Source: Actinomycetes bacterium (lineage in GTDB: Bacteria > Actinomycetota > Actinomycetes > S36-B12 > UBA5976). From it: a DNA stretch of 34,563 nt. The stretch lies in contig JAKAIC010000011.1 of NCBI GenBank assembly GCA_021814565.1, forward strand, positions 1 through 34,563, read 5' to 3'. Positions within the stretch are counted from its first letter, which is position 1. Each line of letters starts with the position of its first letter. The notes beneath the pieces were generated by a model, which saw only the letters and a program-made list of their open reading frames with translations, did not search any database and was not told where the DNA came from. Position numbers and translations under genes: made by a program. Below are positions 21,256 to 26,260 of this stretch, piece by piece.

Positions 21256-21909
21256 ATGACTGACCTCAACGAGAGCTTCGACGAGAACGCCTGGGCGGCC
21301 AACCGTCCGCAGGAGCGCCTGGTCTGGATCGACTGCGAGATGACGGGCCTGGACGTCGAGAACGACGTGCTGGTGGAGATTGCGGTCATTGTCACCGAGG
21401 CCGATCTGACTCCACTCGACGACGGAATCGACATCGTCATCAAGACCACGCCCGAAAAGCTGGCAGGCATGGACCCCTTCGTGGTGAACATGCATAGCGA
21501 GTCCGGACTGCTGCCCCTGATCCCCGAAGGTGAGGAGCTTTCGGCGGCCGAACAGCGGGTGCTGGATTACGTGAAGCAGCATGTGCCCGAAGCCCGCAAG
21601 GCGCCGCTGGCAGGGTCGTCGGTGTACGTCGATCGCATGTACCTGGCGCGCTACATGCCGCAGCTTGACGCCCACCTGCACTACAGACTGGTCGACGTGT
21701 CGACGGTCAAGGAGCTCACGCGCCGCTGGTACCCGCGCGTGTACTTCAACTCCCCCAAGAAGGTTGGCGGCCACCGCGCGCTCGGCGACATCCTCGACTC
21801 CATACGCGAGCTGCGCTACTACCGCTCCATGGTGTTCGCGACCCAGCCGGGCCCCGACACTGCCGCCGCCAAGGCCGCCAGCAGCAACTTCACCGGCACC
21901 GGCAAGTAG
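21256..21909 (+). CDS. orn: oligoribonuclease
   Basis: This 217-residue protein is a DEDDh 3'-5' exoribonuclease that degrades 2-5 nt RNA fragments, including pGpG from cyclic-di-GMP breakdown. That connects it loosely to the two GGDEF genes upstream. The four acidic residues are in place: WIDCEMTGLD (Asp and Glu), YVDRMYLARYMP and HRALGDILDS with the catalytic His. The segment LVDVSTVKELTRRWYP is typical of Orn. The ATG at 21256 follows a weak GAAGGGA Shine-Dalgarno; the frame is open far upstream, but the added part is not Orn-like and lies opposite the glycosyltransferase gene. The C-terminus has a low-complexity Ala/Ser tail. Transcription probably ends at the hairpin repeat 14 bases later. 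Confidence 0.95.
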   Translation: MTDLNESFDENAWAANRPQERLVWIDCEMTGLDVENDVLVEIAVIVTEADLTPLDDGIDIVIKTTPEKLAGMDPFVVNMHSESGLLPLIPEGEELSAAEQRVLDYVKQHVPEARKAPLAGSSVYVDRMYLARYMPQLDAHLHYRLVDVSTVKELTRRWYPRVYFNSPKKVGGHRALGDILDSIRELRYYRSMVFATQPGPDTAAAKAASSNFTGTGK

Positions 21910-21922
21910 CCGCTCTGACGCT

Positions 21923-21980
21923 CAGAAGGCGTATCCGGGCTGCTCAAGCAGCCGGGATACGCCTTCTGGCTTCCGAAGTG
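21923..21980. repeat. 58-bp hairpin repeat, copy 1
   Basis: These 58 bases are identical to 22984-23041. The first 46 (21923-21968) form an inverted repeat with 22-base arms, one mismatch and a CA loop (arm start CAGAAGGCGTATCC). It lies between the convergent ends of orn and the DUF559-like gene, so it can act as a bidirectional terminator, although no U-tract follows. Confidence 0.9.
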
Positions 21981-21984
21981 CGAG

Positions 21985-22863
21985 TCATACCCGCTTGCCC
22001 CGCCGGTCCTGGAGCGCCGTGCGCAGTCCCGCGAGCCACACACCATGCTGCGGATAGACGTCCTTCCACGTCCAACGATGGAGCAGCCACCCAGCTGCCT
22101 GCAATGCGGCCTGTCTCCGCTTCTCCAGGAAGATGGCCCGACGGGCATCGTCAGCGTCACCGTATTTAGCCATTCCGTCCGCCTCGCCCAGCACCCCGGC
22201 ATGCGGCCAGGCAAAGTCGGCACGCAGATTCAGGCCCTGTGCCCTCACGACCAGCTGGACCGTGGGTCGGGGAAGCCCACCGTCGATCATGAGCCCACGG
22301 CTCCAGGACTCGAAGGCGGATTCTGAGCGAGCATCCGCTTCTTCCACGGCTCGACGCAGTGACTTCACGCCGGGCCAGCCCTGCATGCGGTCAACCGTCG
22401 CAAGCAATTCCTCACGCTGAACCCCGTTGGCCAAGGCGCTGTCGAAGCAGATGAGCGCGCCCGCGAGGCCCTGCCAACGTGCCAGTTGCACGGCCGTCCA
22501 GGCCGCGTTGTGCACTGCGAGTCCGCGCAGGTTCACGATTACCTCGTCGGGAGGCCGGCGGCGTCCGTCCACGCGCAGATGCGACGGGTGTGGTTGGGGA
22601 GGGGTGCGAATTCCGTGCAATGCGGCGGCGCCCAGCAAGGGCACCACGGCCCGCCCATCCGCCACTTCCGCACTGGCATAGATGGCCCGTGTCACAGGAT
22701 CTGCGGCAATGGATGCGGCTGCGTACAGCCCGTACTGCATGACCTTGACCTCACCCCTCGCCAGCCAGCCCCGCAGTTCGGCGACGCTGAATCCGGCGGC
22801 AAGCAATGAACTGCGGGTGAAGGGAACGGACAAGGTGCACTCGCGTGCCGGTCTTCTAGGCAT
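21985..22863 (-). CDS. AbiEi/DUF559-type protein with Vsr-like endonuclease fold
   Basis: This protein of about 292 residues belongs to a class often found in many copies in actinomycetes. An N-terminal winged-helix-like part (SSLLAAGFSVAELRGWLARGEVKVMQYGLYAAA) resembles AbiEi antitoxin N-domains. The C-terminal part resembles DUF559/Vsr PD-(D/E)XK nucleases: SESAFESWSRGLMIDGGLPRPTVQ, then RADFAWPHAGVLGEADGMAKY, with the Asp and the ExxxxxK pattern kept. The role is unknown; it may be a nuclease or a regulator. The start is uncertain: ATG 22863 (TTCAAT six bases upstream resembles a leaderless -10), GTG 22929 or TTG 22833. No cognate toxin is adjacent. It is flanked on both sides by identical hairpin repeats, which makes a cassette-like unit. 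Confidence 0.72.
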   Translation of the reverse strand: MPRRPARECTLSVPFTRSSLLAAGFSVAELRGWLARGEVKVMQYGLYAAASIAADPVTRAIYASAEVADGRAVVPLLGAAALHGIRTPPQPHPSHLRVDGRRRPPDEVIVNLRGLAVHNAAWTAVQLARWQGLAGALICFDSALANGVQREELLATVDRMQGWPGVKSLRRAVEEADARSESAFESWSRGLMIDGGLPRPTVQLVVRAQGLNLRADFAWPHAGVLGEADGMAKYGDADDARRAIFLEKRRQAALQAAGWLLHRWTWKDVYPQHGVWLAGLRTALQDRRGKRV

Positions 22864-22973
22864 GAAGGGATTGAAGTTCAGCCCACGGCTCAGCGGGCTG
22901 TGGATTGCGAGCGTGCGACGAACGGCCACAGGAGGCCAATAGCGCGAGCCAGCGGGACCATCGTCGACATCTG

Positions 22974-23041
22974 CTTCGGAAGCCAGAAGGCGTATCCGGG
23001 CTGCTCAAGCAGCCGGGATACGCCTTCTGGCTTCCGAAGTG
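22974..23041. repeat. 58-bp hairpin repeat, copy 2, extended to a 66-bp palindrome
   Basis: Bases 22984-23041 repeat 21923-21980 exactly. Here the left flank adds CTTCGGAAGC, so 22974-23039 is one long inverted repeat: two 32-base arms with a single C/G mismatch and a two-base CA loop. It lies 14 bases beyond the stop of the leftward fadB/J-like gene and can terminate that operon. Confidence 0.92.
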
Positions 23042-23054
23042 TGGTGGGTCGGAG

Positions 23055-25091
23055 TCAGCGGCCGACCCCGAAGGGCTTGCCGTTCACGCGCGTGCTCACC
23101 CCTGCGTAGTCGAGGTAGGCGCAGATACCACCCAGGGCAAAGGGCCAGCCGGCACCGATGATCATGGCCAGGTCGATCTGCGACGCATCCTCCACCATGC
23201 GCTCGTCGAGCATGATGCCGATCTCCTGGGCCAGCGCGCTCTCCACTACCGCGCGTGCCTGATCGGCCGTCATGCCCGAGCCGCCTTTGGCCAGGGCAGC
23301 CACCTCCGGCGGGAAGGCGCCCTTGGCATCGAGCGTTTTGACGCCGAGCGCCACCACCTCGTGCAGGAACTTGGAGACCGGGAAGCGCTCCGGGTACTCC
23401 TCGTGCATGGTGCTGTTGAGGTGCAACGCCACCTGGGCACCCACGAGATCGAGTAGCTGGAAGGCATTCATGGGCAGGCCCAGGCGATCGCTGGCATGCA
23501 TGACCGCGTCCAACGAGACGCCGTCATCGATGAGCCCGAACAACACCGAAAGTTGGCGCAGCAGCAGGCGATTGACGATGAAGCCACGCGTATCCGCGCT
23601 GCGTACCGGCGTCTTCCGCAGCTGGCCCGCAAAGGCGAAGGCACTGGCGATGGCGCGGTCATCGGTGTGCGCCGAGGGGATGATCTCCACCAACGGCATA
23701 CGTGCCACCGGGTTGAAGAAGTGCATGCCCACGACGCGCTCGGGGTGCCGCATGCCCTCGCTCATGCCACCAATGGAGAGCCCTGAGGTGTTGGTGACGA
23801 TGAGGCAGGTATCGGCAACCACATCCTCCAGCCGCTGGAAGACATCGCGCTTGACCGATAGTTCCTCGAACACCGCTTCGATTACGTAATCGCAGGCAGC
23901 AAGGGTGGGCAGTGCATCGGAAACGGTGATGAGGCCGGCGTAGCGACGAGCCTGCGCCTCCGTCCACTTGCCGCGCTTGACCTCGGCAGTCGCCAGTTCC
24001 GCGATGCGACCCCGCGTCAGTTCCGCACGTTCGGCACTCACCTCCACCATGGCCACGGGCAACTTGGTCTTGGAAGCGAAGAGCATGGCAATTTGGCTGG
24101 CCATCAATCCACCACCCACGATGCCGATGCGCGTCACTGGCGTCGGATCGACACCCTCGGGGACGCCGAGGGGCTTCTTGCCCCGACGTGTCACCAGGTT
24201 GAAGGCGTAGACGCTGGCCTGCAACTCCGGAGAGCCCAGACAGGCGACGAGTGCGTCGTCCTCGGCCTCGAAACCTTCATCGCGGGTGCGGGTTCGCGCC
24301 GCCTCGATGAGCTCGATGGCACGCGCCGGCGCGGGGAAGGCGTCATGGGTCCGGGCTGCCACGAAACTGCGGGCCTTGGCTATCGCAGCCTCCCACTCCT
24401 CCGCGGTCCACTCACGGCGTTCAATCACCGTCTCGCCGGTGAGCAGCGAATGGGCCCAGGCGATGCCATCGGCGACGAAGGTCGCATCGGGCAGCACCAT
24501 GTCCACCAAGCCCAGCTCAGCAGCGTCCTTCACCGTCAACATCCGGTTGTTGGACAAGGGGTTTTCAACGATCACCTTGACGGCTCCGGCCGGCCCGATG
24601 AGCCGCGGCAGCAGGTAGGCGCCGCCCCATCCGGGGATGAGGCCCAGATGCACTTCGGGCAAGGCATAGGGACCGCCTGCGCGACTGGAGGCGCGGTAGG
24701 TGCAGTGCAGCGCGATCTCCAGACCGCCACCGACGGCGATGCCGTTCAGTAGGGCGAAGGTGGGGAACGGCAACTCGGCCAGACGTCGGTAGGTGGCGTG
24801 ACCGCGTTCGGCAACCTGACGGGGACTGAGCCCACTCGTCATGATGCCCCCTGGACCCAGGTCAGCACCGGCGCTGAAGGAGTACGGCTTGCTTGTGATG
24901 AGCAGGGCCTTGAGCTCCTGCCCTTCGATCTCGTCCAGCGCCGAGGCCAGCGAGTCGAGCCCGCCAGGACCGAAGGTATTGGGACGCTTGGGATCGGCGC
25001 CATTGTCCAATGTGAGCAGCGCAGCTCTGCCCAATCCATCGGGGAAATCGAAGTAGCGAACCAATGACCTGGTGACGACTTCACTGCTCAT
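23055..25091 (-). CDS. fadJ: bifunctional enoyl-CoA hydratase / 3-hydroxyacyl-CoA dehydrogenase (FadB/FadJ type)
   Basis: This 678-residue protein is the alpha-type multifunctional enzyme of beta-oxidation. The N-terminal crotonase domain has LLNGIAVGGGLEIALHCTYR and LPEVHLGLIPGWGGAYLLPRL, both catalytic glutamates present. The central NAD-binding domain starts TRIGIVGGGLMASQIAMLFASKT and carries HFFNPVARMPLVEIIPS. The C-terminal 3HCDH domains follow (GFIVNRLLLRQLSVLF). It hydrates trans-2-enoyl-CoA and oxidises the L-3-hydroxyacyl-CoA, feeding the thiolase encoded just upstream. Start: ATG 25091 overlaps the thiolase stop (ATGA); the frame is open 16 codons further, but those lie inside the thiolase gene. 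It is the last gene of a three-gene operon and ends at the palindromic repeat. Confidence 0.92.
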   Translation of the reverse strand: MSSEVVTRSLVRYFDFPDGLGRAALLTLDNGADPKRPNTFGPGGLDSLASALDEIEGQELKALLITSKPYSFSAGADLGPGGIMTSGLSPRQVAERGHATYRRLAELPFPTFALLNGIAVGGGLEIALHCTYRASSRAGGPYALPEVHLGLIPGWGGAYLLPRLIGPAGAVKVIVENPLSNNRMLTVKDAAELGLVDMVLPDATFVADGIAWAHSLLTGETVIERREWTAEEWEAAIAKARSFVAARTHDAFPAPARAIELIEAARTRTRDEGFEAEDDALVACLGSPELQASVYAFNLVTRRGKKPLGVPEGVDPTPVTRIGIVGGGLMASQIAMLFASKTKLPVAMVEVSAERAELTRGRIAELATAEVKRGKWTEAQARRYAGLITVSDALPTLAACDYVIEAVFEELSVKRDVFQRLEDVVADTCLIVTNTSGLSIGGMSEGMRHPERVVGMHFFNPVARMPLVEIIPSAHTDDRAIASAFAFAGQLRKTPVRSADTRGFIVNRLLLRQLSVLFGLIDDGVSLDAVMHASDRLGLPMNAFQLLDLVGAQVALHLNSTMHEEYPERFPVSKFLHEVVALGVKTLDAKGAFPPEVAALAKGGSGMTADQARAVVESALAQEIGIMLDERMVEDASQIDLAMIIGAGWPFALGGICAYLDYAGVSTRVNGKPFGVGR

Positions 25092-26260
25092 CGCACGTTC
25101 TCCCAAATGACGCTTGCACCCATACCCAGGCCCACACACATCGTGGTCAATCCATAGCGTGCATCGGGGTGGGACCCGAAGTACTCCACCATGTTCGCCA
25201 TCAAGCGCACGCCACTCGAGGCCAAAGGGTGTCCGACGGCGATGGCGCCACCGTAGGGGTTCACATGCGGCGCGTCATCCGCGATGCCGAAGTGCTCGAG
25301 GAAAGCCAATACCTGCACGGCAAACGCCTCGTTGATCTCGATCACCGCCATGTCATCGATGGTGAGACCAGCCTTGGCAAGTGCCTTGATGGTTGAGGGC
25401 ACGGGGCCGTAGCCCATGATCTCGGGCTCCACCCCCACGAAGGCGTAGGCAAGCATGCGGGCACGGCCCTTGAGTCCCAGCGCTGCCGCCTTGTCCGCAC
25501 TCATGAGCAGAGCGGCAGTGGCACCGTCGTTGAGCCCCGCCGCATTCCCAGCAGTGACGCGGCCGTTGGGACGGAAGGGGGTCTTGAGCCCGGCCAGCGC
25601 CTGCAGCGAGGTGTCGGGTCGCGGCGGTTCATCCTTGGTAATGAGTGTCCAGGCACCTTCCGGGTCGCGCGCGGCGAAGGGCAGCAACTGCATGCTGAAG
25701 CGCTCCTCTGCATACGCAGCCGCGGTGCGCTGCTGCGAACGCAGGGCGAAGGCATCCGTGCGCTCGCGCGTGATGCTCGGCAGGCGATCGTGCAGGTTCT
25801 CGGCGGTGGCACCCATGTTCAGCGCATCCGGCGCCACCAGGCGCTCCACCAGAAAACGTGGGTTCACGTCGAAGTTGGAGCCAATGGGGTGACGGCCCAT
25901 GTGTTCGACGCCGCCGGCGATACCGATATCGATCATGCCCACCGCGATTTCCGATGCGATCTGGGTTGCCGCCGTCATCGCTCCGGAGCACATGCGATCT
26001 ACCGCGTAGCCGGGCACCGTGTTGGGAAGCCCTGCCAGCAGGCCGATGGAGCGGCCCAGCGTGACGCCCTGATCCCCGGTCTGCGAGGTGGCGGCGATAC
26101 CGATGTCCTCGACCAGGGCGGGATCCAACGAGTTGCGCTCGAGCAGCGCCTTCACCACGGCCACACCGAGATCATCGGCACGCGTCTGCGCGTACACGCC
26201 ACCGGCTTTTCCGAAGGGCACGCGAACGGCGTCGACGAGCACCACGTCATGCAACGACAT
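25088..26260 (-). CDS. fadA: acetyl-CoA acyltransferase (3-ketoacyl-CoA thiolase)
   Basis: This 390-residue thiolase has the nucleophilic Cys in DRMCSGAMTAATQIASE, NEAFAVQVLAFLE, NPYGGAIAVGHPLASSGVR (His) and the second Cys in TMCVGLGMGASVIWE. It cleaves 3-ketoacyl-CoA with CoA to acetyl-CoA and a shortened acyl-CoA. Two ATGs are adjacent (26263, 26260). The Shine-Dalgarno AGGAG is only two bases from the first and five from the second, so 26260 is preferred. It lies eight bases after the acyl-CoA dehydrogenase stop and overlaps the fadJ-like gene by four bases. Confidence 0.94.
   Translation of the reverse strand: MSLHDVVLVDAVRVPFGKAGGVYAQTRADDLGVAVVKALLERNSLDPALVEDIGIAATSQTGDQGVTLGRSIGLLAGLPNTVPGYAVDRMCSGAMTAATQIASEIAVGMIDIGIAGGVEHMGRHPIGSNFDVNPRFLVERLVAPDALNMGATAENLHDRLPSITRERTDAFALRSQQRTAAAYAEERFSMQLLPFAARDPEGAWTLITKDEPPRPDTSLQALAGLKTPFRPNGRVTAGNAAGLNDGATAALLMSADKAAALGLKGRARMLAYAFVGVEPEIMGYGPVPSTIKALAKAGLTIDDMAVIEINEAFAVQVLAFLEHFGIADDAPHVNPYGGAIAVGHPLASSGVRLMANMVEYFGSHPDARYGLTTMCVGLGMGASVIWENVR

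Follow-up and report, generated by a model that had tools for sequence, protein, structure and literature searches.

A winged-helix nuclease gene between its own hairpin repeats, probably one unit of a REP-like repeat system of Actinomycetota

The single gene lying between orn and a fadJ-like gene in the 34,563-nt stretch of DNA analysed here (hereafter, the window) encodes a winged-helix (wHTH) protein with a PD-(D/E)XK nuclease part and is bracketed by two exact copies of a hairpin-forming repeat. We consider it probable that this cassette represents a unit of a REP-like repeat system in Actinomycetota that is built around nucleases, and in which the wHTH-nuclease would recognise and cut its own hairpin. 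Comparison of sequences between genomes shows the architecture, the pairing of nuclease and hairpin, the dispersal of hairpin copies, the upkeep of their palindromes through paired changes, purifying selection on the protein and inversion in situ of cassettes with inverted repeats. The features of the window are as follows.

21256 to 21909, plus strand: orn (oligoribonuclease), neighbouring gene, its 3' end adjoining the left hairpin
21923 to 21980, no strand assigned: left hairpin, 58-bp exact repeat with the palindrome at 21923-21968, outer arm CTTCGGAAGC absent
21985 to 22863, minus strand: AbiEi-like wHTH and PD-(D/E)XK (DUF559/Vsr-like) nuclease gene, 292 aa, ATG at 22863
22165 to 22218, minus strand: predicted active site D-x10-E-x-D-x3-K, with no variation among 15 homologues
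22686 to 22833, minus strand: AbiEi-like winged-helix region (approximate), from PADLOC AbiEi models, best E 1.1e-6
22974 to 23041, no strand assigned: right hairpin, 66-bp palindrome (22974-23039) containing the 58-bp copy at 22984-23041
23055 to 25139, minus strand: fadJ-like gene, neighbouring, its 3' end adjoining the right hairpin

The initial annotation had described two exact 58-bp copies in the same orientation around one gene and about 1 kb apart, each forming a near-perfect hairpin and the second extending to a 66-bp palindrome, and this description was confirmed. The direct repeats occupy 21923-21980 and 22984-23041, with a start-to-start distance of 1061 bp; the left copy has 22-bp arms (21923-21968) and the right copy 32-bp arms that are 97% complementary (22974-23039), with an internal mismatch present in both. 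RNA folding of the hairpins gave z-scores of -7 to -11 against dinucleotide shuffles, and the half-site AAGGCGTATCC, forming the arm, is found four times in the window, where 0.26 occurrences would be expected. The left copy is a truncated one: it lacks the outer arm CTTCGGAAGC, which is present in the right copy and in several solo copies elsewhere. The left hairpin lies 13 bp past the stop codon of orn and 4 bp past that of the nuclease gene; the right one is separated by 13 bp from the stop codon of fadJ and stands upstream of the nuclease gene. The genome search for further copies that had been proposed at the outset returned six occurrences per strand in the window's own genome (G000) and none for a reversed control pattern; four members of this hairpin family are solo copies. 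The exact hairpin was not found among 58 relatives. An exact-pattern scan of a genome collection, in which the window's own genome may not be included, gave 0 matches, in agreement with private hairpin sequences. Rfam returned no match near gathering scores.

The reading frame of the nuclease gene is open up to a GTG at 22929, and the PADLOC AbiEi match spans residues 37-155 of this longer frame. Residues D217-x10-E228-x-D230-x3-K234 form the PD-(D/E)XK site pattern that does not vary among the 15 homologues, and a family profile built from these matched PDB 3hrl ('Endonuclease-Like Protein') at 1.7e-5. The label 'DUF559-like' given earlier thus holds at the level of the fold; the C-terminal part had no Pfam match above cut-off, and PF01797 did not match the protein either. 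An AlphaFold model built from four sequences (pLDDT 47) was too poor for use. Judged by the conserved D...E-x-D...K site and the predicted REase fold, the protein is a DUF559/Vsr-like PD-(D/E)XK nuclease. Ratios of dN/dS among the compared homologues were 0.15-0.28, so the protein is maintained by purifying selection.

The AbiEi-like N-terminus, together with a repeat placed upstream of the gene, brings to mind an AbiEi-type regulator, a toxin-antitoxin component or a defence nuclease, with palindromes that would serve its own operon as operators or insulators. We find this improbable: the second hairpin copy stands just past the stop codon, most solo copies (see below) are located at the 3' ends of genes rather than at promoters, and the window cassette has no partner gene. 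The latter applies to the AbiEii nucleotidyltransferase toxin in particular, which is missing from the cassette, the only gene between orn and fadJ being that of the nuclease.

The nuclease family is common: 228 of the 297 class genomes sampled carry it, often in several copies, as do 110 of 246 genomes sampled across the phylum Actinomycetota. Matched flanks were defined as the best local alignment between the 600-bp stretches on either side of the gene with a score of at least 20, and were assessed for 113 homologues of the same class. By this measure left and right flanks matched in 90 cases, and 23 homologues had no clear matched flanks. Control ORFs from the same loci matched in 4 of 110 cases, three of which overlap the nuclease gene itself (so about 1%). 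Among the 90, the repeats are direct in 35, inverted in 43 and undecided in 12; stems of at least 14 bp were present in at least one repeat in 66 and in both repeats in 43. The downstream repeat starts at a median of 10 bp after the nuclease stop. Outside the class, 10 of 16 homologues from other classes of the phylum had matched flanks. The idea of a 'nuclease-associated REP-like element', one of those put forward in the initial annotation, is strongly supported and extends class-wide.

Paralogues in the window's genome and in its congener G001 also sit between hairpins, of other sequences, as at the following loci of this set.

L042, 19 to 82 and 1040 to 1103: hairpins bracketing a nuclease paralogue
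L043, 3486 to 3548 and 4538 to 4598: hairpins bracketing a nuclease paralogue
L050, 2185 to 2238 and 3391 to 3446: hairpins bracketing a nuclease paralogue

It should be added that some cassettes (L048, 1926-3351, and L035, 982-2603) carry three hairpins of the same family instead of two. At the syntenic loci L043 (C33 in the window's genome) and L049 (C5 in G001) the nucleases are only about 58% identical over the best segment and a neighbouring stretch about 89%, and the G001 copy at L049 has no detectable hairpin. Furthermore, the outer ends of many inverted-repeat cassettes carry TGATCACGTTCA or GATTCGACCACGTTAGG-like motifs that are common across genomes (seen at L105, L109, L119, L128, L129, L132, L137, L141, L145, L150 and L156) and are perhaps a conserved end signal.

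Repeat sequence follows the protein. Repeats matched in all 7 protein pairs with identities of at least 70%, in 5 of 18 pairs at 60-70%, in 4 of 35 at 50-60% and in none of 1944 pairs below 50%, with 0 of 774 for background pairs; some of the close pairs share a locus, and their repeat similarity is partly common ancestry. We searched the 12 genomes from which 21 hairpins came with each of these hairpins; every match listed fell in the hairpin's own genome, and among these listed matches the privacy held even between the congeners G000 and G001; in one genome (G233) the two flanking copies were the only ones. On these comparisons, each nuclease appears to have its own hairpin sequence.

Four nucleases and four hairpin families were recognised in the window's genome, with 35 copies found, a number that, like all hairpin copy counts here, is a lower bound. 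Twenty-five of the 35 lie no more than 40 bp past a predicted stop codon, and both window copies are at gene 3' ends. This placement is what one would expect if the hairpins were ordinary terminators or mRNA stabilisers, locally duplicated and serving the neighbouring genes. The stems, however, are not followed by a T-tract (neither window copy has a T-run of the intrinsic-terminator type), the sequence is specific to each nuclease, common to both flanks and changes with the protein, and control genes of the same loci have no paired repeats. We thus give such an explanation little credence, and the 'duplicated terminator' suggested earlier was abandoned on account of hairpins private to each nuclease and tracking its protein, yet the preference of copies for gene 3' ends stands, and terminator use may be a secondary effect.

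Dispersal is also seen outside the window's genome. The hairpin of locus L136 (G069, a complete genome of 5.5 Mb) has tens of further solo matches in G069 and in its congener G091, with the family consensus GCGCTTCACTCGCC - spacer - YACTCGCC - loop - GGCGAGTA - spacer - GGCGAGTGAAGCGC; the nuclease gene of this family is syntenic in G091. Between the window's genome and G001, a solo hairpin separates an AKR gene from fdhD in the former, and the same junction is without hairpin in the latter. G069 and G091 have most of the compared solo sites in common, and no clear target-site duplication was seen at the solo sites compared or at the window, so the comparison lends no support to recent transposition of hairpins. 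We also observed a position behind one shared gene that is occupied by hairpins of different families in G069 (L214) and G091 (L223). A 1.1-kb difference at the L212 site, at first read as a nuclease cassette, proved to be an unrelated gene.

The orn-fadJ junction of G001 measures 22 nt and contains neither gene nor hairpin. The initial annotation had considered a cassette that recombination between the repeats might insert or exchange, and had suggested looking in relatives for a precise empty site with a single repeat at orn-fadJ; the empty junction does exist in this relative, and the single repeat is absent from it. Such a junction would also suit a homing-like selfish nuclease, for which the hairpins would be recognition or protection sites, the gene would spread by cutting sites devoid of the cassette, and solo copies would be remnants of old cassettes, as direct-repeat copies could recombine and leave a solo behind. 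Against this speak the missing residual repeat at the empty site, solo copies far more numerous than the genes, nuclease genes that are syntenic and stay at one locus, and a protein that only 4 plasmid records and 0 phage records match. We regard homing as unlikely, though it is the least implausible of the alternatives. Carriage of the nuclease by plasmids or phages is not supported by these record counts.

The recombination idea is nonetheless half right, as inverted-repeat cassettes do invert in place between species of Jiangella. A scan with a single protein for related loci pointed to three Jiangella loci. Five loci from five species of this genus (L129, L132, L137, L150 and L156), all with inverted repeats, represent one chromosomal place with colinear flanks, where the cassette is oriented one way in G114 and G175 and the opposite way in G097, G263 and G239. 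Opposite orientations occur within both of the most similar protein pairs, L129/L132 (84%) and L150/L156 (76%), so at least two in-place inversions are needed. It could be that plain homologous recombination between the repeats, with no role of the nuclease, is behind this. An apparent move of the cassette between L129 and L132, whose outer flanks disagreed when compared in gene orientation, was dismissed after blastn identified the same locus with the cassette inverted.

Stem alignments show that paired changes keep the palindromes. For family F44, aligned with identical copies collapsed and one row reverse-complemented by hand, four pairs had changes in both arms and the proportion of paired cells was 100%, which was reached by 1 of 500 shuffles. 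Three compensatory pairs were found in family F43 and compensatory changes in 5 of 26 pairs in family A of G069; for family F42 the covariation was weak on pair counts. In the G069 family the outer 11 base pairs do not vary and the inner ones hardly vary, which would be expected of recognised half-sites. A copy of the F44 family at L293 (423-491) has several stem changes, all compensated on the opposite arm, suggesting that the arms may be corrected against each other.

The mechanism that we propose starts from a single-copy nuclease gene bracketed by its cognate hairpin, which also occurs at solo sites throughout the genome, mostly directly past the 3' ends of genes. The wHTH of the nuclease would bind the cognate hairpin and the nuclease would cleave it in the extruded or single-stranded form; repair or copying of the cut hairpin would then spread and homogenise the copies and might flip the cassette. 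The findings suggest more than one origin of selfish palindromes. A gene family that is common in actinobacteria and without known function is tied here to matching repeats in about 80% of the cases tested, and dozens of private enzyme-hairpin pairs are offered for binding and cleavage assays. Nucleases hitherto annotated but unexplained would gain a testable role, and many gene-end hairpins in these genomes would be accounted for. Targeted searches, confined to the open-access literature, found no description of a nuclease-hairpin association, whose novelty is therefore provisional.

Few bacterial repeats are as common as REP-type palindromes. The only dedicated enzymes that we found described for them are HUH/Y1 transposases. 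If a different enzyme, either a RAYT-like Y1 or some unrelated transposase, mobilised the present hairpins and the nuclease were a passive passenger, this would fit the resemblance of the architecture to REPtrons and TIRtrons (PMC3733652), but the hairpins are nuclease-specific and no Y1 (RAYT-type) transposase (Y1_Tnp) was detected in the ten genomes checked, including that of the window, with positive results in control genomes; this makes the passenger role highly improbable.

Several known systems resemble parts of the one considered here. AbiEi, the antitoxin of type IV toxin-antitoxin systems, has a similar winged-helix N-terminal region, which is here fused to a nuclease and accompanied by downstream and solo repeats. 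DUF559/Vsr-like nucleases (PDB 3hrl; the MTES_1575 REase, PMC3710099) share the C-terminal fold and the D-E-x-D-K type of active site; for these, we found no hairpin association described. CGTC-tagged REPs, reported from other organisms, are likewise dispersed palindromes, and are said to have no dedicated transposase (PMC3733652). Vsr/DUF559 nucleases in the vicinity of CGTC REPs (PMC3733652) would merit a look. TIRtrons (TIRYT genes; PMC3733652) also combine an enzyme gene with terminal inverted repeats that are able to form small dispersed families, but TIRYT enzymes are Y1 transposases too (PMC3733652).

The closest analogue is REP/RAYT (the REPtron), yet the present system lies outside it, the enzyme being non-homologous and Y1 lacking in the ten genomes: a wHTH-PD-(D/E)XK protein stands here in place of the HUH/Y1 transposase. 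Moreover, the hairpins here are mostly 56-76 bp long, and the GTAG tetranucleotide that tags one end of REP-RAYT repeats did not appear as a common end in the copies read from the window and L136 families. The broader proposition, that Actinomycetota hold a large, independently evolved counterpart of REP-RAYT whose wHTH-PD-(D/E)XK nucleases would propagate, proofread and sometimes invert their private hairpins, is in our judgement evenly balanced; if true, repeats would here be mobilised in a new way that involves no transposase. In a REPtron, a single-copy enzyme gene lies between copies of its own palindrome, and distinct enzymes have distinct repeats (PMC3116915, PMC3733652). Both systems thus have the enzyme gene within its own palindromes and one repeat per enzyme (here with 90 of 113 homologues flanked), and both have dispersed, mostly intergenic solo copies near gene 3' ends, occurring as hairpins, doublets and clusters.
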